A stretch of DNA of 38,427 bases from Limisphaerales bacterium (GTDB lineage: Bacteria; Verrucomicrobiota; Verrucomicrobiia; Limisphaerales; UBA11358), in assembly GCA_003134375.1 (NCBI GenBank), contig PLAY01000102.1, forward strand, positions 1 through 38,427, read 5' to 3'. The translations under genes and the position numbers were made by a program. The notes beneath the pieces are model-generated. The model ran no database searches. It was not told the DNA's origin and was given only the letters and a program-made list of their open reading frames with translations. Positions 63 to 18,196 of this stretch are shown one piece after another. Positions within the stretch are counted from its first letter, which is position 1; every line of letters begins with the position of its first letter.

Positions 63-1022
63 TCAAGATTCAACTGCTGAAAGTTTTTCCGTCAGCGCCA
101 CGAACTGTTCCAAACCCAACTTCTCTGCGCGTTCCTGCGGCGAGATTTTTAATTCTTCAAATGCGCCCGTCAATTTCTCCACGGGCCAGTCTTCGCGCAA
201 CAATTTCAGCATTTTTTTCCGTCGCTGGGAGAATGCGCGCTTCACAATTTTCACAAAAATCGCGCGCTGGTTTTCGGGCAAAAGCGGCGCGGCGCGGCGG
301 ATCAAAGCCACGCACGCGGAGTCCACGTCCGGCGCGGGGAAAAAACAGCCGGCTGGAATCTTGAACCAGTCGCGCAGCTCGTAGTCGAGTTGAATCAGCA
401 ACGTCAGCAAGCCGTAATCTTCGCCACCAGCTTTGGCCATGAGCCGGCGGGCGACTTCGAGTTGCAGCGTGGCAACCATCCGTTCCGGCCGTTGGGGTGT
501 TTGCGCCAGTTCGACGAGAATCGGCGACGCTACGGAGTAGGGCAGATTGGCCACGAGCTTCCAGTCGTGCCAATCCAGTGGAACAGCCATCCTGCCGGTC
601 TTCGATTTATTTTCAGATGACAAGCTGGAAGCCTGTCCCACTTTCAGAAATTCCAGCGCGTCGGCGTGGAGCAAAATAAATTTCGGAGGGGCGAGCTCTG
701 CGAGTCCCTGATCTTTTGCTTTGGCGGAGTTTGGGGCTCGTGGAACTCGCCCCTCCGAAACGGATGAAAACCGCTCCCGTAGAAATTCCACCAGCCGAAC
801 GTCTTTCTCAATCGCCAAAACCTCACCGGCATTTTCCAGAAGCAATTCTGTCAGCGGACCCAAGCCCGGCCCGATTTCGAGAACTTTGTCCGTCTTTTTC
901 AATTCCGCCGCATCAACGATGCGCCGGAGTTGGTTGCCATCGTGCAGAAAATTCTGGCCGAGGGATTTCGTCAGTTGAATCCCGCGCGTGGCCAGCAGTT
1001 CCCGCATTTCAGAAAGCTTCAC
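63..1022 (-). CDS. rsmA: 16S rRNA dimethyladenosine transferase with two in-frame repeat inserts
   Basis: RsmA (KsgA) dimethylates two adjacent adenines in helix 45 of 16S rRNA during small-subunit maturation. The N-terminal QNFLHD motif (residues 23-28), SAM-binding GPGLGPLT (51-58) and catalytic NLPY (159-162) are all present. The family is usually about 270 residues; this one has 319. The excess is explained by two low-complexity stretches, residues about 88-113 and 127-148, each coinciding with an inverted repeat in the DNA and each lying between conserved motifs. The start is GTG at 1022. An ATG five codons later is an alternative, and neither has a clear ribosome-binding site. The identity is secure. 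Whether the inserts leave the enzyme active is unknown, but the frame and all motifs are intact. Confidence 0.95.
   Translation of the reverse strand: MKLSEMRELLATRGIQLTKSLGQNFLHDGNQLRRIVDAAELKKTDKVLEIGPGLGPLTELLLENAGEVLAIEKDVRLVEFLRERFSSVSEGRVPRAPNSAKAKDQGLAELAPPKFILLHADALEFLKVGQASSLSSENKSKTGRMAVPLDWHDWKLVANLPYSVASPILVELAQTPQRPERMVATLQLEVARRLMAKAGGEDYGLLTLLIQLDYELRDWFKIPAGCFFPAPDVDSACVALIRRAAPLLPENQRAIFVKIVKRAFSQRRKKMLKLLREDWPVEKLTGAFEELKISPQERAEKLGLEQFVALTEKLSAVES
579..644. repeat. Palindromic repeat inside rsmA, GTRGGRC class
   Basis: Imperfect inverted arms lie at about 585-602 and 619-641. On the coding strand the element begins GTGGGACAGGCTTCC and ends near a CCGGCAGGATGGCT arm. It encodes VGQASSLS...KTGRMAVPL in RsmA, the same peptide pattern and reading phase as the element in purH at 14124-14210. 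Its ends resemble those of the element at 18137-18196. Confidence 0.75.
681..760. repeat. Inverted repeat inside rsmA, second family
   Basis: Perfect 15-nt arms TTTCGGAGGGGCGAG (681-695) and CTCGCCCCTCCGAAA (746-760) continue inward as an imperfect stem for about 13 more bases. The element is translated as RsmA residues about 88-113, between the SAM-binding half and the NLPY motif, a stretch absent from ordinary RsmA proteins. Confidence 0.8.
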
Positions 1023-1036
1023 TGGGAGAGATTAAA

Positions 1037-1245
1037 CCACGGATGGACACGGATGGACACGGATAAAACGACGCACGGAACACGTTCTTTTCCCCTCGCC
1101 CCGCCCAAAGCGGGGAGAGGGACAGGGCGAGGGGATTTGAGTTTCACGCACCCCGACCCTCTCTCCCAACTCCGTTGGCGGAGAGGGAGACAACGCAGGC
1201 GCGTACTTCGGTGTTCAATCCGTGTGCATCTGTGTTAATCTGTGG
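1037..1245. repeat. Composite nested repeat between rsmA and aminotransferase
   Basis: The gap between the two genes is bounded by 28-nt inverted arms at 1037-1064 and 1218-1245, identical at 23 of 28 positions by eye. The left arm holds a tandem 10-mer GGATGGACAC. Inside are further dyads: CCCCTCGCC at 1092-1100 with GGCGAGGGG at 1126-1134, and a second C/T-rich and G/A-rich pair around 1157-1190. The right arm runs into the end of the aminotransferase gene and contains its stop codon (1235-1237). No gene of its own is visible here. Confidence 0.75.
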
Positions 1246-2590
1246 CCAAAATCTTTTGGAGTTCGGCGACGGCTTTGGCCAGTTGCGCTTCGGTAATCGT
1301 AAGCGGGGGCGTGAAGCTGATGACGTTACCATACTCCCCTTCGGGCAACAGAATGAAGCCGTGCTGCAACATGATTTTAATGGCCTGCATGGCCGCGTCC
1401 GTGGCCGGCCGGCCGTCGGACAAGTGCAGTTCGACGCCGGCCATCAAACCCAAACCGCGCACGGCGATTTGCAATTTCGGGTTTGAAATTTTCGATTGCA
1501 GTTCCCCGAGCAAAAACTTGCCGAGTTCCGCGCTGCGTTCCGGCAATTTGAGTTTTTCAATTTCCCGGATTTGCGCCAGTGCCATGGCGCAACCGACGGG
1601 ATGGCCGAGGAAGGTGCTGGTATGAATCGCCTCGCCGCGCGATGCCGGCCACGCGGTATCCATCAGTTCGGCGCGGCCAACGCAGGCCGAGAGCGGGAAA
1701 CCGCCCGTGAGCGCCTTGCCCAGGCAGATGAGGTCGGGCATGACGCCGGTGTGTTCGCAGGCAAACCATTTTCCGGTGCGGCCAAAGCCGGTGTAAATTT
1801 CATCGAGAATCAGCAGTGCACCGTGGTCATCGCAAATTTTTCGCAACCGCGGCAGAAATTCCCCGGGCGGAACCTGGATGCCGCCGCGCCCCTGCACCGG
1901 TTCGACCAGAATCGCCCCGATATGTTCGCGGTGAAAAATCCGGCGGATGGACCATTCCACGTTGGCCAGGTCGGCGGATTTTTTTGGAAACGGCACGAAG
2001 TGTCCAAATTCGCGAAGCTGAAAATGAAACGGGTTGCGGAAAAAATTGCGATGGGTGGCGTTGAGCGCACCGTAGCCGAGGCCATGATACGCACCCTCGA
2101 AGGCAATCACCCCGCGCCTGCCGGTGGCCAGAAGCGCGGTTTTGAATGCGGACTCAACGGCTTCAAAACCGGAATTGCTGAAAATGGTTTTCCCGCGAAT
2201 CGGTGAACCGGTGAATCGGTGAATCGGTTCACGATTCAACGGTTGAACGGTTGAAGGGTTCAACGATTTGCTCCATCGCTCGAAGGTGATCCGGCTCAAG
2301 TCGCGGGCGAGTTCCGCCTTGCGCGCGTGCGGTTGCACGTCGCCCATGGCGTGCAAAAGCCGGGACATTTGTTTTTGACCGGCCTTGACGACGGACGGGT
2401 TTGCGTGACCGGCGGCGGCGACGCCAAACGCGGCGGTCAAATCGAGGTATTTTTTCCCGTCAGCGTCCCACACGTGAACGTCTTTGGCGCGGTCCCAAAC
2501 AATGGGCCAGGAGCCATCCGGCTCCATGAACACTATGTTGCGCGACTCGTAATCACGCAGCGTCTCAAGAACTTGACTGGTTTTACTCAC
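1235..2590 (-). CDS. Class III PLP-dependent aminotransferase, substrate unknown
   Basis: A fold-type I, class III (ornithine/GABA family) aminotransferase of 451 residues that moves an amino group from an amine or omega-amino acid to an oxo acid. The cofactor motif ILDEIYTGFGRTG (residues 261-273, Asp263 for the pyridine nitrogen) and the Schiff-base lysine Lys292 in LGKALTGGFP are present. Residues about 108-131 are a foreign-looking stretch encoded by tandem repeats at 2197-2269, and residues about 366-375 may be another. The last codons and the stop fall inside a dispersed repeat, so the natural C-terminus may have been altered. Its position after queE on the same strand, with only a few bases between, suggests co-transcription. 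Glutamate-1-semialdehyde, GABA or diamine specificity cannot be chosen from sequence alone. Confidence 0.85.
   Translation of the reverse strand: MSKTSQVLETLRDYESRNIVFMEPDGSWPIVWDRAKDVHVWDADGKKYLDLTAAFGVAAAGHANPSVVKAGQKQMSRLLHAMGDVQPHARKAELARDLSRITFERWSKSLNPSTVQPLNREPIHRFTGSPIRGKTIFSNSGFEAVESAFKTALLATGRRGVIAFEGAYHGLGYGALNATHRNFFRNPFHFQLREFGHFVPFPKKSADLANVEWSIRRIFHREHIGAILVEPVQGRGGIQVPPGEFLPRLRKICDDHGALLILDEIYTGFGRTGKWFACEHTGVMPDLICLGKALTGGFPLSACVGRAELMDTAWPASRGEAIHTSTFLGHPVGCAMALAQIREIEKLKLPERSAELGKFLLGELQSKISNPKLQIAVRGLGLMAGVELHLSDGRPATDAAMQAIKIMLQHGFILLPEGEYGNVISFTPPLTITEAQLAKAVAELQKILATD
2197..2269. repeat. Tandem 8-mer plus palindromic repeat inside aminotransferase gene
   Basis: Four consecutive 8-mers of the form GAATCGGT (one reads GAACCGGT) occupy 2197-2228. 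They are followed by a GGTTGAAC-rich stretch with a perfect TTCAAC-G-GTTGAA dyad at 2235-2247. Read in the gene, this gives about 24 residues (108-131) between two conserved parts of the aminotransferase, so it looks inserted and kept in frame. Confidence 0.75.
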
Positions 2591-3339
2591 TAAACTCCCC
2601 GTTGTTCCGGCGGCCAGATGATTTTGTGCATCTGCACTTGAAACCGCACCGGCAGCGCGTCGGCGATGATTCGTTCCGCCAATTCGCGCCGCGAAACCGG
2701 CGTCTGGCCGGCGGGAGCCGGTTTCAATGATTTATTTTGCTGCTCCGGCGCGAGCGGATGCCCCCACGAAAAAAGCAGGGGGCATACCACATTCAGCCTG
2801 TGTTCGGCGATTTTTTGCCTGGCCCACTCATAATCTTCAACGGTGCCGATGACAAACTTGATTTCATCAGTCGCTTTCAGGTGTTTGAGGTTTTCCCAGC
2901 AATTGCGTCCGGCCTCGCCGCTGCCGGGGCATTTCAAATCCACGATGCGCCGGACGCGCGGGTCAACCGGCGCGATGTCATGCGCACCGCTGGTTTCAAG
3001 CAACACGGTAAAACCGTCGTCACAAAGCAATTTCATCAACGGCAGGGAATTTTCCTGGAGCAACGGTTCGCCGCCCGTAAGTTCAACCAAAGGCAAGGAG
3101 TTGAGAGTTGAGGGTTGAGGGTTGAGGGGCGGGCGGAATGGCGCGGCCAGCCGCCGGACTTCCGTGCAAATTTCTTCGAGTGATTTTCTTTTGCCTTTGG
3201 CAAAGGCGTAGGCGGTGTCGCAATACGAGCAGCGCAAATTGCAGGCAGTGAGCCGGATAAAAACGCACGGCAGCCCGGCGAAGGTGCTTTCGCCTTGCAA
3301 GCTCAAATAGATTTCGTTGACAACCAGTGTGTCGGACAC
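2590..3339 (-). CDS. queE: 7-carboxy-7-deazaguanine synthase (radical SAM)
   Basis: QueE is the radical SAM enzyme that turns 6-carboxy-tetrahydropterin into 7-carboxy-7-deazaguanine in queuosine precursor synthesis. With a GTG start at 3339 the protein has 249 residues and opens with VNEIYLSLQGES, the expected N-terminus. The cluster cysteines are Cys33, Cys37 and Cys40 in CNLRCSYC, and TGGEPLLQ (residues about 88-95) is the SAM-contact motif. The open frame extends upstream to 3450, but that part matches nothing in the family. Residues about 71-83 (PLNPQPSTLNSLP), just before the TGGEP motif, are encoded by a tandem repeat at 3098-3127 and look inserted. No other queuosine genes are in the window. 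The stop overlaps the first base of the downstream aminotransferase gene. Confidence 0.9.
   Translation of the reverse strand: MSDTLVVNEIYLSLQGESTFAGLPCVFIRLTACNLRCSYCDTAYAFAKGKRKSLEEICTEVRRLAAPFRPPLNPQPSTLNSLPLVELTGGEPLLQENSLPLMKLLCDDGFTVLLETSGAHDIAPVDPRVRRIVDLKCPGSGEAGRNCWENLKHLKATDEIKFVIGTVEDYEWARQKIAEHRLNVVCPLLFSWGHPLAPEQQNKSLKPAPAGQTPVSRRELAERIIADALPVRFQVQMHKIIWPPEQRGV
3098..3127. repeat. Short tandem repeat inside queE
   Basis: GAGTTGAGAGTTGAGGG is followed by further GTTGAGG copies, about four degenerate 7-mers. It is translated in queE as a Pro/Asn/Ser-rich segment next to the conserved TGGEP motif. It resembles the low-complexity repeat type seen in other genes here rather than an enzyme segment. 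Confidence 0.6.
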
Positions 3340-3532
3340 GCTGGCAGTGTAGCGCCCCAACGTAAAAAGGAAATGGCGGTGATTTGCCCGGCACGATTCG
3401 CGGTTTTCTTCTGCGACCTCATCTGTCACACGTTCCGGTGGCGCCGGCAACCGACAATTACAATCACGCGGTTTTAAACGTGACGAACGCCGGTCAATTT
3501 TCCAATTGAGGCCCCCTGAAGATTTCGCGCGC

Positions 3533-4327
3533 TCAGGGAAAATGTCCGAGCGCGGAATATTTCCCGATGCGATAACTTCGCGTGATGGCGGCGGTCACGT
3601 GGCGTTTGCCGATTTCAACCGCATGCGGCAAATCATGGTTCGACGCCAGCGCCGCCACGATGGCCGCCGAATAAGTGCAGCCCGTGCCGTGAGTCGAGAC
3701 GCCTTTGATAAACGGCGCACGCAACAGCAGTTCCGTCCGGCCGTCAAAAAAAATGTCCACCGCATCGCGCCCATCGCGCAAATGGCCGCCTTTGACCAGC
3801 GCAGCGCAGCCGAACCGCGCGTGGATTTCCCGCGCCGCCACGCGCATGTTTTCAACGGACGCAATCTTGCGTCCGATCAAAATCCCGGTTTCGTCGAGGT
3901 TGGGTGTGACCAGGGTTGCGAGCGGCAGCAATTGTTCCCGCAAAATTTTAATCGCCGCCGGTTTCAGCAATGCCGCGCCGCTGGTTGAAATCATGACCGG
4001 ATCCACCACGAGCGGCGGGCGCTTTTGCTTTTTGAAAAAAACGACAACGGCACGCATGATTTCGGCTGAAAACAACATTCCGGTTTTCACCGCCGCCGGC
4101 CGTAATTCCTCGAAGACGGCTTCCATTTGTAGCCGCACGATTTCAGGCGAACACGGTTCGACGGCGAGAACGCGCCGGGGATTTTGCGCGGTGAGGCAGG
4201 TGATGACACTTGCGCCGTGAACGCCAAGCGCGGCGAAGGTTTTCAAATCGGCCTGAATGCCGGCGCCGCCGCCGCTGTCGGAGCCGGCAATGGTCAGCGC
4301 CACCGGCCATTTCACGATCCGTGACAT
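3533..4327 (-). CDS. thiD: Hydroxymethylpyrimidine/phosphomethylpyrimidine kinase
   Basis: ThiD phosphorylates 4-amino-5-hydroxymethyl-2-methylpyrimidine twice to the pyrophosphate used in thiamine synthesis. The 264-residue protein has the ribokinase-type substrate motif GSDSGGGAGIQAD (15-27), the VVDPVM region (107-112), and the anion-hole HGTGC (213-217) with its cysteine, and is of normal length. ATG at 4327 (MSRIVKWPVAL) is preferred. The frame stays open to 4363, but the added residues are not family-like. It stands alone for thiamine synthesis in this window, about 190 bp upstream of queE on the same strand. Confidence 0.93.
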   Translation of the reverse strand: MSRIVKWPVALTIAGSDSGGGAGIQADLKTFAALGVHGASVITCLTAQNPRRVLAVEPCSPEIVRLQMEAVFEELRPAAVKTGMLFSAEIMRAVVVFFKKQKRPPLVVDPVMISTSGAALLKPAAIKILREQLLPLATLVTPNLDETGILIGRKIASVENMRVAAREIHARFGCAALVKGGHLRDGRDAVDIFFDGRTELLLRAPFIKGVSTHGTGCTYSAAIVAALASNHDLPHAVEIGKRHVTAAITRSYRIGKYSALGHFP

Positions 4328-4406
4328 GAGTTTGAACTTACCGGAAGTCGCACAAAACGGCACGGAAAAAAACCGGCGGGGCGGGACTTGGGTTGCCCGG
4401 AACGCC

Positions 4407-6383
4407 TCAAGCGGGGCGTTTGCCCGACGCAGTAACCCGGAGCAGCAAGTCGTTTAGTTCCCTCATGCGCGGTGGCTTGCCGATGACGGCGTCCACTTCC
4501 GAAGCGGTTTCTCCCTCTTCCCTCATTATCGTGCCCCACCCGGTCATCATGATGATGGGGGTGTTGGGGGACTCCGCTTTGATGGTTCGGGCCACTTGGT
4601 GTCCATCCATCTTTGGCATGCCCAGATCCGTAATGACCACTTCGTAGGGCTGGTTTTTCTGCATGGCGGTGCGGAATAATTCCATTCCGTGCTCCCCGCC
4701 GGAGGCAACCATCACCCGATGATTGAAGTGCGTGAGACAATCGTCCAGAAGCTGCCGGACCTGCGCGTCGTCATCAATACAGAGGATGTGAAGGGAGCGC
4801 TTTGGTTTGACTTGCGGCAAAGTGCCCCGAACGGTTTGCGAAGATTTTTCTCGAACGGGAAAAGTGAGCCGGAAACAGGTGCCACGGCCGGGAGCACTGT
4901 CAATCTCAATGGTGCCGTCGTGGCGTTGCATCATTCCGTAAACCATCGCCAGACCGAGTCCGGTGCCGCCGCGCTGGGCCTTGGTGGAAAAGAACGGCTC
5001 CAGACAACGTTGCCGTGTTTTTTCATCCATGCCGATACCGTTGTCCTTCACTTCGACCTGAAGCTGCCGCTCGGAAGCCCCACTCTCTTCCGAAGCGGGA
5101 CCACTGATGGAACGAGTGACAAAGGTGATGGTACCGCCTTGCGGCATGGCGTCCACCGCATTGAAGACCAGGTTGATCAGCGCTTCCCGGAGTTCGCTGG
5201 GATCACTCAGCAGCAGCGGCGGTTGGGATTCCAGTTCGCGTTGGATCTGGATGGAGATGCCCTGGCGCTGTGAAAGGTCGCGCCAGCGCGGCCGGGTGAG
5301 TTCGATTACTTCTTCGATAATCTGATTGATGTTCAGCGGGAGCAATGGTTCCGCATCCGAGCGGCGCCGATAGAACTCCCGCATGCGGGTGACGATTTGA
5401 GCTATGTCCCCGCCCGCCTGGTTGATGGTTTGCAGGTAATGCTTTGAGGCTTCCGGCAAATCCGGCAGCGTACTCAGCAGCAGTTCCGAATAGGCGACAA
5501 TGGGAGACAGCGCGTTGTTGACATCGTGTGCAACCCCGCTGGCCATTTGCCCCAAGGCGCGGAGGCGCTCCTGCTGCACAACCATTTGCTGGGTCCGGCG
5601 CAACTCTTCATAAGCTCTCTGAAGTCCCTCGGTAACGCGCACTTGATCATAAAGGCTGCGGCATTGTTCCTCGGTGGTGATGACTTTGACCTGCAAGGCC
5701 TCCTTCTCCGAACGAACCGCCGCGATTTCGGCAATCGTCTGCTCATTTTTGTACCGGACCTCCTCCAAGACGAGCACAATCATGCTGACGGCAATGAAAA
5801 GCTGCAACACCGCGGCCACAAAAAAACCAGCGCTGAACAGGTTGTCGTATTGCTGCGAAAGCGGATAACTCCCTAGGTAGATTCCCCATAGAAAGAATCC
5901 CAGCGCCAGCATGCCCGCACCCACGAACGGCATTTTCTTCCGCAGCCGGAAGAAACAAGTCCCAGCAAAAATACTGCCGCAACCAAGCAGAATAAAGACC
6001 GGCCACTGAACTTCCAATGTACTTGAGAGGATTTGCGGACTGACGAGGGTCCAAACCAGCAGGAACATCATGAACAGACCAAACAGCCTCTGCGGAACCG
6101 GGAGGCTGAGAAAAAGCAAGCTGCCCCACAAAAGAAAGACCGCCGAAATCGCCACACAACCCTGCTTGATCATGAAAAAGATGCTGTCAGGCGGAGTATT
6201 CTGCATCTGGAGGCTCAACGTCAGCCACAGTGCATAAAACAACCATGCCGCTGTCCAAACGGTGAAATACTCCCGTTTGGTGTAACGATTCAGGTAGTAA
6301 AAAAGCCCCACCAGCACCCACACGCTTAACAGCGACACCATCAATGCCGCCCGCATATATTCCCGGGGAAATATTAAATCCAT
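4407..6383 (-). CDS. Membrane hybrid histidine kinase with receiver domain
   Basis: This 658-residue sensor begins with about seven hydrophobic segments (residues 10-205), so the input region is a membrane module of unknown ligand rather than a periplasmic domain. A coiled-coil linker (210-275) leads to a HisKA domain with phospho-accepting His286 in GVAHDVNNALSP, an ATPase domain with N-box Asn408, DNGIGM (447-452) and GTGLGL (473-478), and a C-terminal receiver with Asp586 in VVITDLGMP and Lys636. All phosphorelay residues are intact. The layout resembles NtrB-like hybrid kinases of environmental bacteria. No separate regulator gene is adjacent, so the final output partner must be elsewhere. 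It is divergent from polX across 241 bp. Confidence 0.9.
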   Translation of the reverse strand: MDLIFPREYMRAALMVSLLSVWVLVGLFYYLNRYTKREYFTVWTAAWLFYALWLTLSLQMQNTPPDSIFFMIKQGCVAISAVFLLWGSLLFLSLPVPQRLFGLFMMFLLVWTLVSPQILSSTLEVQWPVFILLGCGSIFAGTCFFRLRKKMPFVGAGMLALGFFLWGIYLGSYPLSQQYDNLFSAGFFVAAVLQLFIAVSMIVLVLEEVRYKNEQTIAEIAAVRSEKEALQVKVITTEEQCRSLYDQVRVTEGLQRAYEELRRTQQMVVQQERLRALGQMASGVAHDVNNALSPIVAYSELLLSTLPDLPEASKHYLQTINQAGGDIAQIVTRMREFYRRRSDAEPLLPLNINQIIEEVIELTRPRWRDLSQRQGISIQIQRELESQPPLLLSDPSELREALINLVFNAVDAMPQGGTITFVTRSISGPASEESGASERQLQVEVKDNGIGMDEKTRQRCLEPFFSTKAQRGGTGLGLAMVYGMMQRHDGTIEIDSAPGRGTCFRLTFPVREKSSQTVRGTLPQVKPKRSLHILCIDDDAQVRQLLDDCLTHFNHRVMVASGGEHGMELFRTAMQKNQPYEVVITDLGMPKMDGHQVARTIKAESPNTPIIMMTGWGTIMREEGETASEVDAVIGKPPRMRELNDLLLRVTASGKRPA

Positions 6384-6624
6384 ACCGTTAAGTCCTATAA
6401 TTTTATTTCCGGCTGCATTTTAATCAATCTGACAATCTTGATTATTAAACCTTCAGATTGTTGCATAAGCCTTTCCGAGCAAATCAAATATATCTAATCA
6501 CAAAATCAGATTCTGTCAATCTTTCTGACCTGCGGTTTAGGAAGCATTTTCCGGGCCGGAACGAACTCACGCCTTTGCCTGCTTTCTCTTTGGATTCCGC
6601 TCTTATACGCCTATACTCAAGCGC
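6384..6624. promoter_or_regulatory. Divergent AT-rich intergenic region, kinase / polX
   Basis: These 241 bp hold no gene. Bases 6384-6520 are AT-rich and probably carry the kinase promoter on the minus strand, although no clean -35/-10 pair could be fixed. A candidate polX promoter lies at the other end. Confidence 0.5.
6590..6617 (+). promoter_or_regulatory. Candidate polX promoter, possibly leaderless
   Basis: TTGGAT (6590-6595) and TATACT (6612-6617) are separated by 16 bp. The -10 box ends only 7 bp before the polX ATG at 6625 and no purine-rich ribosome-binding site precedes that ATG, so a transcript starting at or next to the start codon is likely if this promoter is used. Confidence 0.35.
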
Positions 6625-8376
6625 ATGGACAAAGAGCAAGTCGCGGAAATTTTGGCCGAAATCGGCACCCTGCTGGAATTGAAGGGCGAAAATCCGTTCA
6701 AGACACGGGCCTACGTGAATGCCGCGCGAACGATTGAAAGTCTGAGCGAGCCGCTGTCAAAAATTGTCGCCGAAAATCGGCTTGGCGAAATCAAAGGTGT
6801 CGGCGAAGCGCTAACGAAAAAAATCACCGAACTCGTCACCACCGGCAAATTGAAGTATTACGATGAGTTGAAGGCTTCGATTCCCCCCGGTTTGATTGAG
6901 ATGCTGGAAATTCCCGGGCTGGGGCCGAAGAAAATCCAGGCGCTCAACCAAAAACTCGCCGTGGATTCGGTCGAGAAACTCGAAGCCGCCTGCCAGGCTG
7001 GCAAAGTAGCCAAACTCGACGGCTTTGGTGAAAAAACGCAGTCAAATTTGCTCGAAGGCATTGAGCGCCGCCGCACTTACGCTTCGAAACATTTGTTGAG
7101 CGAAGCGTTGCGCGCCGCCGAACCGTTACTCGACGGTTTGCGTGGGCATCCTGACGTCATCCGATGCAGCGCTGCCGGCAGTCTGCGGCGGGTCAAGGAA
7201 GTCATCGGCGACATTGATTTGCTGGCATCGTCGAAAAAGCCGGCGGAGGTAATTGGGGGGTTTGTCGCGCAGCCGGACATCATCAAAGTCACCGCCAGGG
7301 GTGAAACCAAGGCAAGCGTCATTCTGGACGGTGGCATTCAATGCGACTTGCGCGTGGTGAGCGACAAGGAATTTCCGTTTGCGCTTGCGTATTTCACCGG
7401 CAGCAAGGAGCACAACATCGTCATGCGCCAGCGGGCGATTCTGCGCGGCCTGCGGCTCAACGAATACGGCTTGTTCAAATCGAAGGAAGAGACGCGCGAC
7501 CCAAAGTTGCTTGTGCCGTGCCGGGACGAAACGGAAATTTTTGCGAAACTGGATTTGCCGTTTGTGCCGCCTGAACTCCGTGAAGATCATGGAGAATTTG
7601 CGGCGGGTGAAAAGAACGATTTGCCGCGACTCATCGAGTGGACGGATTTGAAAGGCGCGCTGCACAATCACTCAACGTGGAGTGACGGCCACAATCGGCT
7701 TGAGGAAATTGCCGAATACATGGAAGAACTTGGTCTGGCCTACTGGGCGATCACCGACCATTCGAAGTCGTCGTTTCAGGCGAAGGGTCTCGACGCAAAA
7801 CGCGTTCGCGAGCAAATCAAGGAAATCAAAAAGATTAACGGGCGGCTGGCCGAACGCGGCAGCGATTTTTGTCTGCTCACCGGAACTGAAGTGGACATTT
7901 TGCGCGACCGGCTGGATTTCAACGATGAATTGCTCGCCGAACTGGATGTGGTGGTGGCAAGCTTGCACGTTCCAGCCAGCGGCGAAGCGGAGAACACCAA
8001 ACGTCTGATTCGGGCGGCGGAAAACAAATTTGTCCACATTATCGGTCACCCAACCGGCCGGCTGCTCTTGGAACGCGAACCGTATCCAGTCAACGTGCCG
8101 GCGGTGATTGATGCGTGTGCTGAGACTGGAACCTGGATTGAGCTGAATTGTAATCCGCACCGGTTTGACTTGGACTGGCGGTTGTGGCCTTACGCAAAAA
8201 GCCGGGGCGTGAAATGTGTCATCAACCCGGACGCGCACCGCAATGAACACGCTGCTTTTCTCAGGCTGGGCGCGGGAATTGCACGCAAGGGTTGGCTGGA
8301 AAAAACAGACGTCGTCAATACTCTTGCCCTAAAATCGCTGCGGAAGGAGTTAAGGCGCAAGCACTTGAATGTTTGA
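6625..8376 (+). CDS. polX: Family X DNA polymerase with C-terminal PHP domain
   Basis: Bacterial PolX is a gap-filling repair polymerase fused to a PHP metal-dependent 3'-5' exonuclease. The 583-residue length is standard. Helix-hairpin-helix elements lie at 55-67 and 93-104 (EIPGLGPKKI). The nucleotidyltransferase motif is GSLRR...GDIDLL (185-200) with catalytic Asp196 and Asp198 and a third carboxylate at Asp241. The PHP domain starts at HNHSTWSDGH (347-356) and continues with ITDHS (376-380), Glu422, His448, His475 and DAH (536-538). All metal ligands appear present. It is probably monocistronic: the next gene is 174 bp away and belongs to the polysaccharide group. Confidence 0.95.
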   Translation: MDKEQVAEILAEIGTLLELKGENPFKTRAYVNAARTIESLSEPLSKIVAENRLGEIKGVGEALTKKITELVTTGKLKYYDELKASIPPGLIEMLEIPGLGPKKIQALNQKLAVDSVEKLEAACQAGKVAKLDGFGEKTQSNLLEGIERRRTYASKHLLSEALRAAEPLLDGLRGHPDVIRCSAAGSLRRVKEVIGDIDLLASSKKPAEVIGGFVAQPDIIKVTARGETKASVILDGGIQCDLRVVSDKEFPFALAYFTGSKEHNIVMRQRAILRGLRLNEYGLFKSKEETRDPKLLVPCRDETEIFAKLDLPFVPPELREDHGEFAAGEKNDLPRLIEWTDLKGALHNHSTWSDGHNRLEEIAEYMEELGLAYWAITDHSKSSFQAKGLDAKRVREQIKEIKKINGRLAERGSDFCLLTGTEVDILRDRLDFNDELLAELDVVVASLHVPASGEAENTKRLIRAAENKFVHIIGHPTGRLLLEREPYPVNVPAVIDACAETGTWIELNCNPHRFDLDWRLWPYAKSRGVKCVINPDAHRNEHAAFLRLGAGIARKGWLEKTDVVNTLALKSLRKELRRKHLNV

Positions 8377-8550
8377 AGCATGCAAGATTTTAAGGACTTT
8401 TTGCCGGCCAAATAAGCAAAAAAATGCTTTGACTGTGATAATATTTTGTTGGTAGCTTTTACAAAATTATTGGCTGTTAGAATATTTTTTGAAATGTTTG
8501 AATGCAAAAGGGCTTGAACGGTCAAAAGAACGATCTGGTGGGGTAGTGAT

Positions 8551-9870
8551 ATGAAGAAATTTTTTGTCTCTGTGGGACTCATCGCTGCTGGGACGGCCAG
8601 CCTTCAGGGGGCCTATGCCCCTGATTGGAATTCCACGGAAGCTTCCATGTGGCGGGTTTCGGGCACGTTGCGCGGGTTTTACGATGACAACTACGAAACA
8701 GCGCCAGCGGGAGCCAAACAAGGCAGCTTCGGTTTTGAGGTTTCCCCACAACTTGAGCTTAACGTGCCACTGCAACAAACTGAGTTGGGGGTGCGCTACA
8801 CTTATGGTTTGTATTATTATCAGAAGCGGGAGGATTTAGGGGAAAACCCGATTGACCAGACCCATCAATTTGATTTGTGGGTGGATCACGCATTCACCGA
8901 GCGTTGGCAGGGAAAAGTGCAGGATTCATTCGTCATGGGACAGGAGCCGGAATTAATCAATGGTGGTACTTTGCATCGTACCTCTGGAGATAACATCAGC
9001 AATTCGGGCACCTTGACTTTGAACACAATTTGGACGCGGTTGTTCAGCACCGCGTTGAACTATCGAAACACAATCATTGATTACCAGAACCACGGCGCCA
9101 CCGACGCAGATGTTCTACCCGGGGGGAGAGGGGCCAGCCTTGCTGGTGAGTTGAATCGCATTGACCAATCGGTTTCGTTGGATCTTCAATGGCTTGTCGC
9201 ACCGGAAACCACTGCCTTCGTTGGCGGCTCGCTCGAGTGGGTAAACTATACGGCAGACGAACCGATTGCCCCTGATTATTATGCGTCTTTACGCGACCCG
9301 ACAGCTCCGCGTACGTATCTTAACAGCGACGCTCGCGACAATCGTTCGTATTATGGATATGTGGGTGTCCAGCGCAGTGTGCTTGCGAATTTGAGCCTCA
9401 CCGCCAAAGGCGGAATACAGTACACTGAGAATTATAATGATCCGTCTGACTCAACTTCGCTCAATCCGTATGCGGATCTTTCGTTGATTTACACCTACTT
9501 GCCGGGCAGTTACGCCCAAATTGGTTTTACTCAATCGCAGAACGCAACCGACCAGGTTTCACCTGACCCGGCCACCGGCAGTTTCGCCTTGGATCAGGAA
9601 AGTTCCACGGTTTACGGTTCCATCAATCATCAATTGACATCCAAGCTGCTGGGCACAGTCATTGGGCGCTGGCAACATTCGATATACAACCAGGGCCTTT
9701 ACAATAATCAGGCGGATGATTACTATAGTTTGGGGGCGAACCTGTCGTATAGTTTCAACAAGCATCTTTCAGCTGAAGCCGGCTATAATTTTGATGATCT
9801 TGTCTCTAAAATTCCGGGGAACGGTTACACGCGCAACCGTGTTTATTTGGGAGTTACAGCCGCCTATTAG
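8551..9870 (+). CDS. Outer-membrane beta-barrel protein of exopolysaccharide cluster
   Basis: A 439-residue secreted protein with a clear signal peptide (MKKFFVSVGLIAAGTASLQGAYA, cleavage near residue 23). The rest has alternating polar and aromatic strands rich in Tyr, Asn and Asp, and it ends GVTAAY with a C-terminal aromatic residue as expected of BAM-assembled barrels. It sits directly upstream of the Wzc-like and Wza-like genes. Barrels of this kind (the EpsL or PEP-CTERM-associated type) are found in exopolysaccharide operons of other bacteria, which suggests a role in polymer passage or surface binding. That is inferred from context. A GTGGGG stretch lies a few bases before the ATG. 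Confidence 0.75.
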   Translation: MKKFFVSVGLIAAGTASLQGAYAPDWNSTEASMWRVSGTLRGFYDDNYETAPAGAKQGSFGFEVSPQLELNVPLQQTELGVRYTYGLYYYQKREDLGENPIDQTHQFDLWVDHAFTERWQGKVQDSFVMGQEPELINGGTLHRTSGDNISNSGTLTLNTIWTRLFSTALNYRNTIIDYQNHGATDADVLPGGRGASLAGELNRIDQSVSLDLQWLVAPETTAFVGGSLEWVNYTADEPIAPDYYASLRDPTAPRTYLNSDARDNRSYYGYVGVQRSVLANLSLTAKGGIQYTENYNDPSDSTSLNPYADLSLIYTYLPGSYAQIGFTQSQNATDQVSPDPATGSFALDQESSTVYGSINHQLTSKLLGTVIGRWQHSIYNQGLYNNQADDYYSLGANLSYSFNKHLSAEAGYNFDDLVSKIPGNGYTRNRVYLGVTAAY

Positions 9871-9908
9871 CCAGCCGTGTCAAACCAAATTGTTTTGAAC
9901 GTTTAGAC

Positions 9909-9946
9909 GGGAGCCGGGTCAATGGTCTGGCTTCCATTATTTTTTT
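9909..9946 (+). terminator. Hairpin with T-tract between barrel gene and wzc-like gene
   Basis: GGGAGCC (9909-9915) can pair with GGCTTCC (9929-9935, one G-U), followed by ATTATTTTTTT (9936-9946). This is an intrinsic-terminator shape sitting 8 bp before the Wzc-like ATG, so it could limit readthrough from the barrel gene or hide the next start. Confidence 0.45.
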
Positions 9947-9953
9947 CCGACAT

Positions 9954-12125
9954 ATGGATTCATTACAAAATCAGCCGCAACAGGAAACCAGGCTGCACTT
10001 TCTGGACTATTGGCGCATTATCCGCATTCGCAAGGCCATCATCATCACTGTTTTTCTGATCACCGCCATCGTCGCCACCGCGGTAACATTCCTTTTGCCC
10101 GAATCCTATGCCAGCACGGCCCGAATCAGAATCGAACCCGACACCATCTCCGACATTCGAGGGGTTGGCGACGTAATGCCATACGCGGCTTACGACCCTT
10201 ATTTCATTCAGACCGAATTTGAAATCATCCAGGATCGTGTTGTTTTGGGAAAAGTCATTGAATCCCTTAATCTGAACGAAGTATGGGGCAAAAAATACTT
10301 TGGCGGCGAGATGCTCAAAACTCCCGAGACCATGGAGTTTCTCAAGAAACGAATGAGCCTGATGCCCGTGCGCAACACCAAGCTCATTGAAATCACCGTC
10401 TATAGCGAAGACAAAAACGACGCTGCGCGCCTCGCCAATACCATTGCTGAAACCTACCGCGATTACCGCCTCCATCTGCGCAGGCAACTCAGCCTGAATG
10501 GCATCAAGGTTTTGGAAGATCGGTTCCAGTCGGACGGAGAGCAAATCGAAGCTATTCAAATCAAAGTGGACACCCTGCGCAAGGAATTGGGCGTCAATGA
10601 CAGTGATCCCAACTCCATGCTCCCCACGCCTACGCTCTCGCAGGAACAAGTGCGCAACTACAACGCCATGCGTCTCGAAGGCGAGACGCACTACATGAAA
10701 CTGGAGAAAGAAGTGACCCAACTTCAGGTATTAAGCCCGGATAAAATGAGGGACGTTCTCCCCACGTTGGCCCCGGATCCAGCCCTGTCCGAGTTGTTGA
10801 ACAAACTGCATGAGTCTGAACAGACCTTCGTCACTTTGACCAACGACTATTCCCCGGCCGATCTACATATCACCCGTATTCAATCCATGATTGACGAGTT
10901 GAATCATCAGATTGACGCCCGGGTCGCCGGCATCATGGCCGGTTTGGAAAATCAGGTCCAGTCAGAGAAAGCCGCGCTCGACGCACTTACCGCCAGCGTT
11001 GAAACAGCCAAAGACAAGGACCAGACGGATTTCACCAAAGGCCAGCCCTACTGGTTGGTAAAGCGCGAACTGGGAGAAAAGATCGAATTCCACAGGCTGC
11101 TTGGCGTCAAAATTGCACAAGAAAAGCTCGACCTTGAAATTCCCAAAACTTCAATAGTGGAAATTACCGGCCAAGCCGAGCCTGGAGACCGCCCCGTCAA
11201 ACCAAACAAGACATTGAACATCGTTCTCGGTGTTATCATCGGCTTGATCATGGGGGTCGGTTTGGCCTTCTTCATTGAATATCTGGATACCAGTGTCAAG
11301 ACGATTGACGAGGTGGAGCGTGCGTTCCAATCGCCGGTGCTTGGCGTTATCCCGCAAAACGTTGGTTACTTGGTGGACGAAGGCCTCGAAAGCCCGCACG
11401 CCGAGGCCTACCGCGTGCTGCGCACCAATATCCTGTTCTCACGCAAGGACGAAAAGCTCAACACCGTTGTCGTCGTCAGTGCCGGTGCGGGAGAAGGCAA
11501 ATCCATCACCGTGGTGAATCTGGCCACAGTATTTGCTCAAGCCGGCCAGCGTATATTGGTCGTGGATTCCGACCTGCGCCGTCCGACACTGCATAAACTG
11601 TTGCACGTCAGCAACAATATCGGCCTGACCAATTATCTGCTGAAACAAAACCAGCTCGAAGAAGTCATCCAGACCACCGGCGTGCCGATGCTTGACTTCA
11701 TGGCCAGCGGCAAACTGCCGAGCACTTCGATGAGCATTCTCGGTTCGGCGCAGATGAAGGAAATGGTCGCCGAATTAAAGCAGCGATACGATTTCATCTT
11801 CTTTGATTCGCCGCCCATTCTGGGTGTGAGCGACGCCTCGGTCCTGGCCAGTGAAGTGGACATGGTCATCCAGGTTATTCAATACCGCCGCTATCCACAG
11901 CCCATGAGCATCCGCGCCAAGCAATTGATCGAAAAAGTCGGCGGCAACCTCATCGGCATCCTCCTCAACAATATCAACATGTCACAGGACGAAAGCTATT
12001 ACTACTATACCGGCTACTATCACGGCAATTATTACTACACGCGCAACGAAGACGCTCTGGAAACTCCCGCCAAGGGAAAAGATCCCGATGACACCGACAC
12101 GATCGGGATTAAACAAAAGTATTGA
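9954..12125 (+). CDS. Wzc-like polysaccharide co-polymerase / BY tyrosine kinase
   Basis: This inner-membrane protein of 723 residues couples a chain-length (Wzz) domain to a bacterial tyrosine kinase and controls assembly of capsule or exopolysaccharide. TM1 is at 29-48, the periplasmic coiled-coil region at 50-415, and TM2 at about 421-441. The cytoplasmic kinase has Walker A SAGAGEGKS (509-517), Walker A' VVDSDLRRP (536-544) and Walker B FIFFDSPP (614-621). The tail has nine tyrosines at 682-695, the autophosphorylation cluster that defines BY-kinases. No tyrosine phosphatase gene is nearby. The start has no visible ribosome-binding site and follows a hairpin with a T-run, which could mean translation depends on leader structure. 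Confidence 0.92.
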   Translation: MDSLQNQPQQETRLHFLDYWRIIRIRKAIIITVFLITAIVATAVTFLLPESYASTARIRIEPDTISDIRGVGDVMPYAAYDPYFIQTEFEIIQDRVVLGKVIESLNLNEVWGKKYFGGEMLKTPETMEFLKKRMSLMPVRNTKLIEITVYSEDKNDAARLANTIAETYRDYRLHLRRQLSLNGIKVLEDRFQSDGEQIEAIQIKVDTLRKELGVNDSDPNSMLPTPTLSQEQVRNYNAMRLEGETHYMKLEKEVTQLQVLSPDKMRDVLPTLAPDPALSELLNKLHESEQTFVTLTNDYSPADLHITRIQSMIDELNHQIDARVAGIMAGLENQVQSEKAALDALTASVETAKDKDQTDFTKGQPYWLVKRELGEKIEFHRLLGVKIAQEKLDLEIPKTSIVEITGQAEPGDRPVKPNKTLNIVLGVIIGLIMGVGLAFFIEYLDTSVKTIDEVERAFQSPVLGVIPQNVGYLVDEGLESPHAEAYRVLRTNILFSRKDEKLNTVVVVSAGAGEGKSITVVNLATVFAQAGQRILVVDSDLRRPTLHKLLHVSNNIGLTNYLLKQNQLEEVIQTTGVPMLDFMASGKLPSTSMSILGSAQMKEMVAELKQRYDFIFFDSPPILGVSDASVLASEVDMVIQVIQYRRYPQPMSIRAKQLIEKVGGNLIGILLNNINMSQDESYYYYTGYYHGNYYYTRNEDALETPAKGKDPDDTDTIGIKQKY

Positions 12126-12157
12126 TTGTGCGCCCAGTTTCGTATGGATTAGGGACA

Positions 12158-12805
12158 ATGAAATTATTTTGGAAAGCAACAAGTTTGGGATTCTTTGCCT
12201 GTGGCCTGCTGTTCACCGGTGTGATTTTCACCGGATGCTACTCGCCATCAAGCAATCCCATCTTTTCCGACACCCCCATTCCGCCGGTAATGATCGGTTC
12301 GCCATCCACAGGCTATAGCGCGGTGGAGGTTGCCCGTTTTCATATCGGTGACTCTGTCTCGGTGGCCTTGACCGGCCTGCCGGAAATCATAGAACCACAC
12401 GTGGAGCCCATCAAAGAAGATGGCACCATCACCATGCCTGATATCGGCCACGTTCAGGCTGCGGGTAAAACTGCGGGGGAACTTCAGAACGAAATATATA
12501 ATCTCTATGTGCCGAAGTATTACCGCCATCTCACCGTCACGGTGAATGCCGGTGACCGCGTCTATTACGTCACCGGTGAAGTCAAGAATCCCGGCCGCCA
12601 GCTCTACGCCGGCCAAATGACCGTCACCAAAGCCATCACCACGGCGGGTGACTTTACTGACTTTGCCAATCACAAAAACGTCAGACTCATCCGTGCCAAT
12701 GGCCAGACCATCAAGGTCAATTGCAACAAAGCCCTTCAGGATCAGTCCCAGGACCCGCTGGTGTATCCCAACGATCAGGTCCAAGTGCAGCGCCGATTTT
12801 GGTGA
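12158..12805 (+). CDS. Wza-like polysaccharide export lipoprotein
   Basis: The 215-residue product begins with a lipoprotein signal (MKLFWKATSLGFF, lipobox FTGC with Cys27), followed by a polysaccharide-export domain (HIGDSVSVALTG, then ITMPDIGHVQAAG) and a SLBB domain (VYYVTGEVKNPGRQL). Wza-family proteins form the outer-membrane or periplasmic channel through which polymer leaves. This one is shorter than E. coli Wza (about 380 residues), with one SLBB repeat and no obvious C-terminal helix for crossing the outer membrane, so the preceding beta-barrel may supply the pore. ATG at 12158 is chosen because it opens the signal peptide; the frame is also open from a TTG at 12122. The gene follows the Wzc-like gene by 32 bp. 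Confidence 0.88.
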   Translation: MKLFWKATSLGFFACGLLFTGVIFTGCYSPSSNPIFSDTPIPPVMIGSPSTGYSAVEVARFHIGDSVSVALTGLPEIIEPHVEPIKEDGTITMPDIGHVQAAGKTAGELQNEIYNLYVPKYYRHLTVTVNAGDRVYYVTGEVKNPGRQLYAGQMTVTKAITTAGDFTDFANHKNVRLIRANGQTIKVNCNKALQDQSQDPLVYPNDQVQVQRRFW

Positions 12806-13194
12806 TGATTCAACTCAACATCCTTTCAGGAAGAAAGGCGGGCGCTCAATCGGCAGCCCGCCGTTTTCCTTTCCGCATCGGACGTGCGTCTGGAAACGAA
12901 CTGCAACTCGACGATGACGGCATTTGGGATCAGCATCTCACACTGGAATTTAACCGGCAGAAAGGTTTCATGCTCGCAACCGCGCCAAACGCCCTGACCA
13001 CCGTCAACGGCGAACCCGTTCAGACCGCGATTCTTCGGAATGGTGACATCATCACCCTCGGTTCCGCCAAACTCCAGTTCTGGCTTGCCGCCGCCCGCCA
13101 GCGCAGCCTGCACCTGCGTGAAGCATTCGTCTGGGCATTGCTGGTTGCCGTCACCGCCGCCCAGTTTGCATTGATCTACTGGCTTATCCGTTAA
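12805..13194 (+). CDS. FHA-domain protein with C-terminal membrane anchor
   Basis: A 129-residue protein whose start codon shares one base with the Wza-like stop (TGATG), so the two are translationally coupled. Residues 3-93 form a forkhead-associated fold: [13 protein letters not shown] (23-35), QHLTLEF, NG (68-69) and [14 protein letters not shown] (79-92). The core Arg27 and His44 are kept, but the phosphate-contacting serine of the usual SxxH is Trp41. A single TM helix (about 108-127) anchors it, with the domain on the cytoplasmic side. Coupling to a tyrosine-kinase operon suggests an adaptor of the export complex. Whether it still binds phosphopeptides is doubtful. Its stop overlaps the convergent purH stop. 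Confidence 0.8.
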
Positions 13195-14801
13195 TGCCGG
13201 AAATGCCGCGCGCCGGTGAAGACCATGGCCATGTTCCGTTCATCCGCTGCCGCAATCACTTCCGCGTCACGTACCGAACCGCCCGGTTGAATCGCCGCCG
13301 TTGCGCCCGCTTCCGCCGCCGCAATCAAACCATCCGGGAACGGGAAAAATGCGTCGCTGCAAACCACGCTGCCTTTCAGCGAAAGCCTTGCCTCGCCCGC
13401 TTTCCAGACCGCAATCCGGCTTGCGTCCACGCGGCTCATTTGTCCGGCGCCAATGCCCAGCGTCCGGTCGGCCGCCCCATAAACAATCGCGTTTGACTTC
13501 ACGTGCTTGACCACGCGCCAGCCAAAAAGCATTGCGCGCAATTCATTGTCCGTCGGCTGCCGGCGGGTGACGATTTTCAAATCCGCGCGCGCCGCTGTTT
13601 TCAAATCGCGCTCCTGCAATAAAAACGAATTTGCCCCGACACTTCGCACGTCCAGCGACCGTGCGGCGAGCGGTGATTTCAAGACTTTGAGCAGCCGCAG
13701 ATTTTTTTTCTTTTGCAAAATCGCCAATGCTTCCGCTGAAAAATCCGGCGCCACGATGACCTCGCTGAAAATTTCCGCGATGGCCTCCGCGCACGCGCCG
13801 TCGAGCGGACGGTTTACGGCGATAATGCCGCCAAACGGCGCCTGTTTGTCCGTCGCAAACGCCTTGTCCCACGCCTCACGCAAATTTGTGCCTTGGCCAA
13901 CCCCGCACGGATTGGTGTGCTTCAAAATCGCCAGCGTTGGCGGGTCGTCCGAAAACTCCGCAATCAAATTCGCTGCCGCCGTCAAATCCAGAATGTTGTT
14001 GTAGGAAAGTTCCTTGCCGTGCAGTTGCTGGAAAAATTCATTGAAACCGCCGTATAGCGCCGCCGCTTGATGCGGATTTTCCCCGTAGCGCAACGGCTGT
14101 GCCAGTGGCGCGGAAATTGAAAGCAGGACAGGCATCTTGCCTGTCTCATTATTTTTCGTTCCCCTTGAGGCGGGAGATGGATTTGGAGACAGGCAAGATG
14201 CCTGCCCTACGTTGAATTCTTTTTGCAGATGCGCGGCAATGGCGCCGTCATAGGCGGCAGTGCGCGCAAAAACTTTCGCTGCCAGTTTGCGCCGCAGTTC
14301 GAGGGTCGTATCGCCGTTGGCGGAAATTTGTTCCGCGACTTCCGCGTAGTCCAGCGGATCAACGACCACCGTGACACTGTCATGATTTTTCGCCGCACTG
14401 CGCAGCATCGAAGGCCCACCGATGTCGATGTTCTCAATCGCGTCGTGCAAGGTGACATCCGGCTTCGCCACCGTCTGCTCAAACGGATAAAGGTTCACCA
14501 CCACGAGATCAATCGGTTGAATATGGTGCGTGCGGATGGCGGCTTCGTGCGTTTCGTTGCCGCGAATGAAAAGCAAACCACCGTGGACTTTGGGATGCAA
14601 AGTCTTGACGCGGCCATCGAGCATTTCAGGAAAGCCCGTGTATTCGCTGACGTCCTTCACCGCGAGTCCGGCCTCGCGCAGCGTTTTGGCAGTGCCGCCA
14701 GTGGAAATAATTTCAATTCCGGCCTTGGCCAGAATTTGCGCGAACGGAACCAGCCCCGTTTTATCCGAAACCGAAATCAGCGCCCGTTGAATTTTTGCCA
14801 T
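13191..14801 (-). CDS. purH: Bifunctional AICAR transformylase / IMP cyclohydrolase with repeat insert
   Basis: PurH carries out the last two steps of de novo IMP synthesis. The N-terminal IMP cyclohydrolase domain shows [19 protein letters not shown] and [15 protein letters not shown]. The transformylase domain starts at LRYGENPHQ and includes LKHTNPCG. Length from ATG 14801 is 536, versus about 510-525 in most bacteria. The extra residues (about 198-226, VGQASCLSP...TGKMPVLL) lie at the domain junction and are encoded by a palindromic repeat. The frame stays open upstream to a TTG at 14843, which adds 14 residues not typical of the family. It lies 43 bp downstream of the TolC-like gene on the same strand. 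Its TAA overlaps the convergent FHA gene's TAA within TTAA. Confidence 0.95.
14124..14210. repeat. Palindromic repeat inside purH, GTRGGRC class
   Basis: Arms of 22 nt at 14125-14146 and 14187-14208 are complementary at 21 of 22 positions, with a central segment of 40 nt. The coding-strand start reads GTAGGGCAGGCATCTTGCC. In purH it encodes VGQASCLS...ETGKMPVLL, matching the insert in RsmA in pattern and phase although the enzymes are unrelated. Confidence 0.9.
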
Positions 14802-17112: not shown

Positions 17113-17114
17113 AA

Positions 17115-17184
17115 CGTGAAACGTGATGCGTGAAAAACCATTGACGCCCAAATGTAATTCACGCATCACGTTTTACGTTTCACG
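17115..17184. repeat. Inverted repeat between adaptor and ABC ATPase genes
   Basis: The arms are CGTGAAACGTGATGCGTGAA (17115-17134) and its complement at 17158-17184, which contains seven extra bases that would bulge. The element fills the whole 75-bp gap and ends three bases before the ATPase ATG, so it replaces any ribosome-binding site and could fold in the mRNA. Confidence 0.8.
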
Positions 17185-18136: not shown

Positions 18137-18196
18137 GGTAGGGCAAAGCTGCTGCTTTACCCCGATATGTCGGCGGCGCGGCAGCGCCGCCCTACC
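18137..18196. repeat. Palindromic repeat before ABC permease, GTRGGRC class
   Basis: The left arm (18137-18161) starts GGTAGGGCAAAGCTGC and the right arm (18173-18196) ends GCAGCGCCGCCCTACC. The outer 8 bp are perfectly complementary and the inner part partly so. The GTAGGGC end is shared with the elements in purH and, with two changes, in rsmA. An ATG at 18167 inside the repeat is in frame with the permease but is probably not its start. Confidence 0.75.

Follow-up and report, generated by a model that had tools for sequence, protein, structure and literature searches.

RsmA and PurH, two unrelated enzymes encoded in a 38,427-nt stretch of a Limisphaerales bacterium (contig PLAY01000102.1 of assembly GCA_003134375.1; the whole stretch is called the window here), each carry a palindromic insert that is read in frame. 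Our results indicated that these inserts are probably inverted pairs of repetitive extragenic palindromic (REP) sequences belonging to a system of REPs and REP-associated tyrosine transposases (RAYTs), the complete unit of which likewise lies in frame inside essential enzymes. An earlier sequence-only reading had noticed that both proteins share VGQAS-x-LS ... TG(R/K)M(A/P)V over inverted-repeat DNA. Both translations do read so, and the DNA cores under them (Table 1) fold far below shuffled sequences: against 200 shuffles, the folding energy had a z of -10.0 for PurH and -4.9 for RsmA (-5.2 for a third element of the window). In RsmA the insert stands as ...FLK-VGQASSLSSENKSKTGRMAVPL-DWHDWK..., and its far arm is degenerate, the element scan scoring this copy as a single arm. 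In PurH the insert has inverted arms of 33 nt that are 88% complementary, and it lies in a loop within the stretch matched by PF01808. The arm is a tagged hairpin, GT(A/G)G-GACAGGC-NNNNN-GCCTGTC, and two arms are opposed across a spacer. With its GTAG foot and short stem the arm is built like a REP, and the pair like a REP dimer. The tags of the window's elements are GTAG, GTGG and GCAG. Within the window the short arm alone was matched six times against a shuffle mean of 2.1, a modest excess (six was reached in 1 of 100 shuffles). A predicted structure of PurH (mean pLDDT 64.5, pTM 0.48) placed the insert after a long helix with a pLDDT of about 30, and this low-confidence model weakly suggests that the insert is disordered.

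As the sequence-only reading had proposed to check, the arms are dispersed elsewhere in the bacterium's own genome (G000; 4.16 Mb in 201 contigs, assembly 92.8% complete). The pattern GTRGGNCAGGC-N5-GCCTGTC, with up to two mismatches, gave 166 arms there as against 0 + 1 matches for the control, the same pattern read backwards; a looser pattern gave 276 matches versus 95. From 78 stretches (77 loci and the window), taken among the matches listed and not as a full census, we drew 73 distinct elements: 47 two-arm pairs, 23 single arms and 3 palindromes of 27 bp. As in the GTAG-REPs, a short hairpin has GTAG (or GTRG) at its foot, although the search required GTAG-like tags, so that outside the window the tag is a condition of the search; the copies are likewise numerous and dispersed, and frequently form inverted dimers. 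However, they are not mostly extragenic as GTAG-REPs are: tabulation of the in-frame copies, also suggested at the outset, placed 42 of the 73 in frames of at least 170 aa that stayed open over 30 aa or more to each side. The share differed by class, with 30 of 38 short pairs (49-98 bp), 8 of 23 single arms, all three 27-bp palindromes and the one 155-bp pair within genes, and none of the eight long pairs (130-136 bp). The 42 in-gene elements lie in 40 frames, equal to 39 genes (two frames belong to one dnaE). Pfam families were matched by 38 of the 40 frames, mostly those of core enzymes, while L004 and L008 had no Pfam match at an E limit of 1e-3. With protein names being our interpretation of the Pfam hits, the hosts include TrpE, NuoL, RibF, AlaRS, LigA, Mfd, GcvP, UvrD, DnaE, PheT, UvrC, GltX, PrmC, GatB, LeuRS, ValRS, PriA, ThiC, TrpC, XseA and others. 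Each orientation has three phases; phase 2 is closed because it sets TAG in frame, and the 42 copies used the other two 22:20. The reading phase common to RsmA and PurH, to which meaning had been attached, therefore means little.

Relatives from the same genus and order were compared at both sites. RsmA was found in 42 and PurH in 44 of the 45 genomes searched, and 30 loci were taken for each, the own genome being included throughout; 28 other loci were measured for PurH (L354 left out) and 25 others were compared for RsmA. The PurH segment had 31-36 residues in 27 of the 28 versus 52 in G000, and the remaining locus (L340) had 42 residues with a related VAQASRLP insert. About 12 loop residues differed besides the gain in length. 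In RsmA the net gain was 18 aa, and REPR or a similar short stretch stood there in the 25 other loci; the loop of these relatives varied in length and held unrelated sequences. The relatives expected to lack both inserts thus exist, but host residues differ too and the alignments do not show a clean addition. This comparison suggests, therefore, that a few host codons would have been lost or replaced when the elements entered, in a loop already prone to vary. Long PurH frames in G014 and G037 were considered as carriers of a RAYT and rejected, as they consisted of an open frame upstream of the start, without an insert.

The RAYT itself was found inside host genes. A search of G000 with Y1_Tnp (PF01797) gave eight matches, one of which lay in the 1137-aa frame of ClpB, between the two ATPase domains. 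Another lay in PriA between two REP blocks; this match was weak (23 bits), but DHVH and YIWNNP were present. The two PriA blocks are 92% alike, and G000 has 29 block matches including these two, some in long frames. The 154-bp REP block of the PriA RAYT was also seen in frame in a U32 peptidase, in TrpE and in two other long frames of this genome (L442, L444, L441 and L452). At E <= 1e-20, relatives of the ClpB guest numbered 148 across 196 genomes of the order. Thirty-six lay in frames of at least 500 aa, with a TGA within the match in one of the 36. Twenty-three of these 36 loci were examined for their host and it was named for 21, by Pfam or, for L150, L157, L158 and L162, from a shared flanking sequence. 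The hosts were ClpB (three genomes with L147), the DinG helicase (seven), DnaE (two), a UDPGP-like protein (two), type I restriction subunits (three), PriA, SNF2, an N6 methylase, a cyclase and a CRISPR-associated family.

Similar loci occur beyond the order. In a scan of named genomes limited to the best 80 of 395 relatives, 34 of the 80 loci were embedded (at least 100 aa before the guest and at least 60 aa after it); stand-alone copies also exist. Pfam scans of 23 of the 34 revealed as hosts CarB (twice), LeuRS (three times), PriA, DinG, HsdR/EcoEI, Eco57I/TaqI, MmeI and SNF2. The record titles of the embedded loci name Verrucomicrobia, Kiritimatiellales, Chloroflexales, Flavobacterium, Ignavibacteriales, Methylomirabilis, Gallionellaceae and others. 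For example, the Flavobacterium guest lies at about residues 531-720, and plasmid homologues from Planktothrix and Parabacteroides are about 210-260 residues shorter over the stretch, as would be expected without the guest. Altogether 58 embedded copies, or 56 distinct ones (L153/L430 and L152/L361 are duplicate sequences), were collected, and known host domains flanked the guest on both sides in ClpB, DinG, PriA, LeuRS and CarB. A structure model of ClpB with its RAYT (mean pLDDT 55, pTM 0.32) was poor and was not used.

All three states, the full element, a lone REP pair and an empty site, were observed at one site in DinG. DinG gave one match each in 100 of 107 genomes, of which 90 were read and 84 could be measured. 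From the TSATL motif to the next conserved block, 79 of the 84 loci had 30-85 residues and the other five, with a RAYT, had 283-341. A lone REP pair stood at the RAYT site in G000, G105, G040 and, less clearly, G062. Within a single genus, G134 and G172 have a REP pair, the RAYT and a second REP pair, and G105 has one pair, whose 79 nt, spacer included, are one base off the downstream pair of G134 and one base off that of G172. The lone pair of G105 is the in-frame product that would be expected from recombination between two such flanks, though the order may have been the reverse, with a lone pair acquiring the RAYT. Just outside the dinG frame of one locus (L158:455-648), we also noted two inverted matches to the Acido-Lenti-1 RNA of Rfam (RF01687), a family which may be a dispersed palindromic element. 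In DnaE, G000 has lone pairs at both of the RAYT sites (site 1 holds a RAYT in G126 and site 2 in G181). At these two sites and at the DinG site, the full element occurs in families other than that of G000. In ClpB, where 17 of 30 loci were measurable, the corresponding stretch had 265-294 residues with the RAYT in three congeners and 21-32 in 14 others. As to further copies of the hosts, the ClpB part used as query gave one match in G000 at E <= 1e-80, and the LeuRS editing domain gave a single strong match in each of four genomes, namely the RAYT-bearing frame, the weaker matches presumably being other synthetases. In the RAYT tree, in which 11 of 31 inner branches were well supported, guests of one host tended to group, with exceptions; a single clade for the DinG RAYTs was neither shown nor rejected (p-AU 0.40). 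Recent horizontal homing into DinG was considered and rejected. Between families RAYT identity was 52-72%, as against 72-83% for the part of DinG after it and 59-72% for the part before it, and since it is below the former and at or below the latter, there is no sign of recent transfer.

The HVH motif and the catalytic tyrosine were kept in all 58 embedded copies (48 by motif, 10 by alignment). The guests thus have the Y1_Tnp domain, the HUH motif and the one catalytic tyrosine of a RAYT, Y1_Tnp being unlisted in several embedded frames at the strict E limits used, but they are internal to host frames and not separate genes. The closest solved structure by sequence was TnpA-REP (4er8, E 1.6e-4). 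The ClpB guest of the three congeners had a dN/dS of 0.10-0.17, the guest of a DinG pair one of 0.15 and the host parts 0.04-0.28; some dS values were above 1, so these ratios are rough. They point to purifying selection on the guest in both hosts tested, and the guest looks alive. Within a distance of 260 bp, an exact GT(A/G)G-tagged hairpin stood on the upstream side in 27 of the 58 embedded loci, on the downstream side in 37, on both in 22 and on at least one in 42, compared with 8 of 212 control windows. GTAGGACAGGC flanks the RAYT of DinG in G117, G134 and G113, and the RAYTs of G000 have other REP-like hairpins.

Other explanations have to be weighed against these data. It is highly improbable that the similarity arose by chance or reflects ordinary variation of loop length, with the embedded RAYT frames being mis-assembled or accidental. 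The RsmA and DinG loops do vary in relatives, and two embedded frames showed no host domain (see below); against this stand the 166 copies versus one in the control, the host domains on both sides of the guest in five enzymes, the same ClpB loop in three congeners, the same DinG site across families and the low dN/dS of the guest. Removal of the guest after transcription or translation, whether as an intein, a group I or II intron or an IStron or through ribosomal bypassing over the REP hairpins, would leave a mature enzyme without it. Inteins are in-frame guests of essential enzymes that use recurrent sites and have a DNA-cutting domain, all of which the embedded RAYT shares; some hosts are of the kind inteins favour (DnaE, helicases), a REP pair would make a strong RNA hairpin, and insertions recur at the same sites of DinG and DnaE. 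However, Pfam scans of the frames, at E limits of 1e-3, 1e-5 or 1e-7 by scan, listed no Hint/intein domain, and no group I or II intron was found in nine loci with Rfam at gathering thresholds. Removal also needs no open frame, yet the guest frame is open throughout in dozens of loci and the frame is kept in lone REP pairs too. We therefore regard removal as very unlikely; in contrast to an intein, the guest apparently stays in the protein, and its enzyme is an HUH transposase.

The host might also have adopted the extra loop or HUH domain for its own use, such as DNA targeting or regulation. Many hosts act on DNA, the guest appears to be long-lived, given that guests of one host tend to group, and it is under apparent purifying selection. 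But such selection is equally expected of a self-serving transposase, ClpB, LeuRS, CarB and PurH do not act on DNA, the presence of the guest is patchy with lone REP pairs at the same site, and relatives have unrelated sequences in the same RsmA loop, so that adoption is unlikely. Finally, the sequence-only reading had likened the inserts to the Rickettsia palindromic elements (RPEs). The likeness stood for their behaviour, as RPEs too are palindromes translated in frame in unrelated core enzymes, but not for kinship. In the passages of Di Nocera (PMC3733652) that deal with them, RPEs are tagged with CGTC and apparently have no dedicated transposase, whereas the elements of the window carry GTAG/GTGG and not CGTC, and RAYT genes are present and embedded here. 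Arrival of RPEs in another phylum is thus barely credible.

Several observations weigh against reading the inserts and embedded genes as one REP/RAYT system. Pfam found no host domain in 2 of the 23 loci examined within the order (L151 and L160, in frames of 646 and 678 aa) and in 2 of the 23 scanned in named genomes at an E limit of 1e-7 (L395 and L362). The embedded loci come mostly from metagenome assemblies, with the records of L359 and L417 not marked as such. Sixteen of the 58 embedded loci have the exact tagged hairpin on neither side, and in the 92.8% complete assembly of G000 we found no RAYT with the exact GTAGGACAGGC family at its flanks. Furthermore, taken modulo 3, the cores of the 30 in-gene short pairs have lengths of every class (5, 16 and 9 for 0, 1 and 2), therefore insertion must have added or removed bases beyond the core. 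The relatives showed no RAYT at the RsmA site (25 loci) or at the PurH site (28 loci), therefore these two copies may be direct insertions.

The REP/RAYT reading can be compared with described systems. GTAG-REPs and their dimers were described in 2013, also inside ORFs and most in the verrucomicrobium Opitutus terrae, where the intragenic ones, a minority among mostly extragenic copies, are often in repair and synthetase genes (Di Nocera, PMC3733652). As far as the passages on GTAG-REPs in that paper go, our elements are like them in the GTAG/GTGG foot, short stem, inverted dimers, variable spacers and many copies, and like those of O. terrae in being translated in repair, replication and synthetase genes, with two inserts in one gene; they differ in being intragenic in the majority, and a RAYT gene inside a host gene is not described in those passages. 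The intragenic repeats are probably a new family of a known kind; their sequence may still equal that of one of the O. terrae families. The guests resemble RAYT/TnpA-REP in the Y1_Tnp domain, NHVH, WQ and YIxNNP and in the REPs around the gene; unlike these, they form an internal domain of a host enzyme. By motif they are nearest to subclass 2.4 (RAYT group 4) or 2.7 as outlined in PMC6006769, and some copies resemble subclass 2.4 in a HuH-Tyr stretch like a translated REP. In the aligned copies, however, the HuH-Tyr distance was about 58 residues as against a median of 88 given there for subclass 2.4, therefore the subclass is not settled. In L154, L178, L397 and L402 we noticed a RAYT within a restriction gene that has such an extra stretch, an insert within an insert. 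A RAYT embedded in a host enzyme was not described in the titles and abstract openings of the openly available literature searched (subscription papers, preprints and supplements lay outside), and the embedded transposase is new as far as these searches go.

The features of the window are collected in Table 1. The third element, which the sequence-only reading had called related, is indeed extragenic and GTAG-tagged, but its sequence differs from that of the RsmA and PurH elements. The second RsmA palindrome reads SEGRVPRAPN..DQGLAELAPP, belongs to a repeat family of the form SEGRV.RVPN...DQGL.ELVPP and has no GTAG tag; congeners G022 and G005 (L306 and L308) show a resemblance to it at the same RsmA site. 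An extragenic stretch at 1081-1190 has an inverted look (cccctcgccc...ggcggagaggg), and LLGERAGVRE, translated within RsmA of the congeners G001 (L303) and G017 (L314), gives an impression of kinship to it. Another inverted repeat, with 32-nt arms (84%), lies at 17112-17180, at the end of one ORF and ahead of the next.

Table 1. Palindromic elements of the window and the genes that carry them.
Feature	Coordinates	Strand	Remarks
rsmA, 16S rRNA dimethyladenosine transferase	63..1022	-	RrnaAD PF00398; carries two in-frame palindromic inserts
REP pair in RsmA, inverted, GTGG/GTAG-tagged, probably translated in frame	578..641	-	protein reading VGQASSLSSENKSKTGRMAVPL
Second RsmA palindrome, unrelated, probably translated in frame	681..760	-	arms 28 nt, 86% complementary
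purH	13191..14801	-	AICARFT/IMPCHase PF01808 + MGS PF02142
REP pair in PurH, inverted, GTAG-tagged, probably translated in frame	14123..14210	-	VGQASCLS...ETGKMPVLL
Extragenic GTAG-tagged REP pair, other sequence family	18138..18195	.	between two + strand ORFs

The family, its in-frame location, the empty sites, the shared sites, the near identity of one lone pair with a flank, the purifying selection in the two hosts tested and the sole-copy hosts where tested can be read in the sequences themselves; from them we infer translation of the chimera, insertion chemistry, mobility (including that of the RsmA and PurH elements) and the recombination step. REP pairs, each REP being a GTAG tetranucleotide with a 7-bp hairpin, would enter host proteins at variable loops. 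E. coli TnpA-REP cleaves REP DNA, and insertion of both the REP pair and the full REPtron most likely proceeds by RAYT chemistry, mostly into loops. In essential genes only insertions that keep the frame open and free of stops would survive selection, and the surviving REP copies would be translated as an extra hydrophilic loop. The autonomous unit, REP pair-RAYT gene-REP pair, sits in frame and stop-free in essential enzymes, and its transposase would form an inner domain of the host's polypeptide chain. Lone pairs could have two origins, direct insertion in trans by a RAYT, or recombination between the flanking pairs, which would delete the RAYT and leave an in-frame scar. We consider it fairly probable that the stop-free REP-RAYT-REP unit is a permanent, translated and unspliced domain of essential enzymes in several phyla, placed at recurrent loop sites (DinG, DnaE twice, ClpB, PriA, LeuRS, CarB and restriction enzymes), inherited with the host gene and decaying by flank recombination to in-frame REP scars, one source of repeats like those of PurH and RsmA.

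REPs and RAYTs would then be coding guests in indispensable enzymes, beyond the picture of extragenic repeats with a stand-alone transposase. Such guests may account for some of the "unexpectedly long proteins" that were discarded in an earlier survey (PMC6006769). The full element, lone pair and empty site make up a testable life cycle. If true, in-frame burial in a sole essential gene would guard a selfish gene against deletion and frameshift and so would aid its persistence; an essential gene may shelter a selfish element, and the long survival of RAYTs would thereby find a simple explanation.

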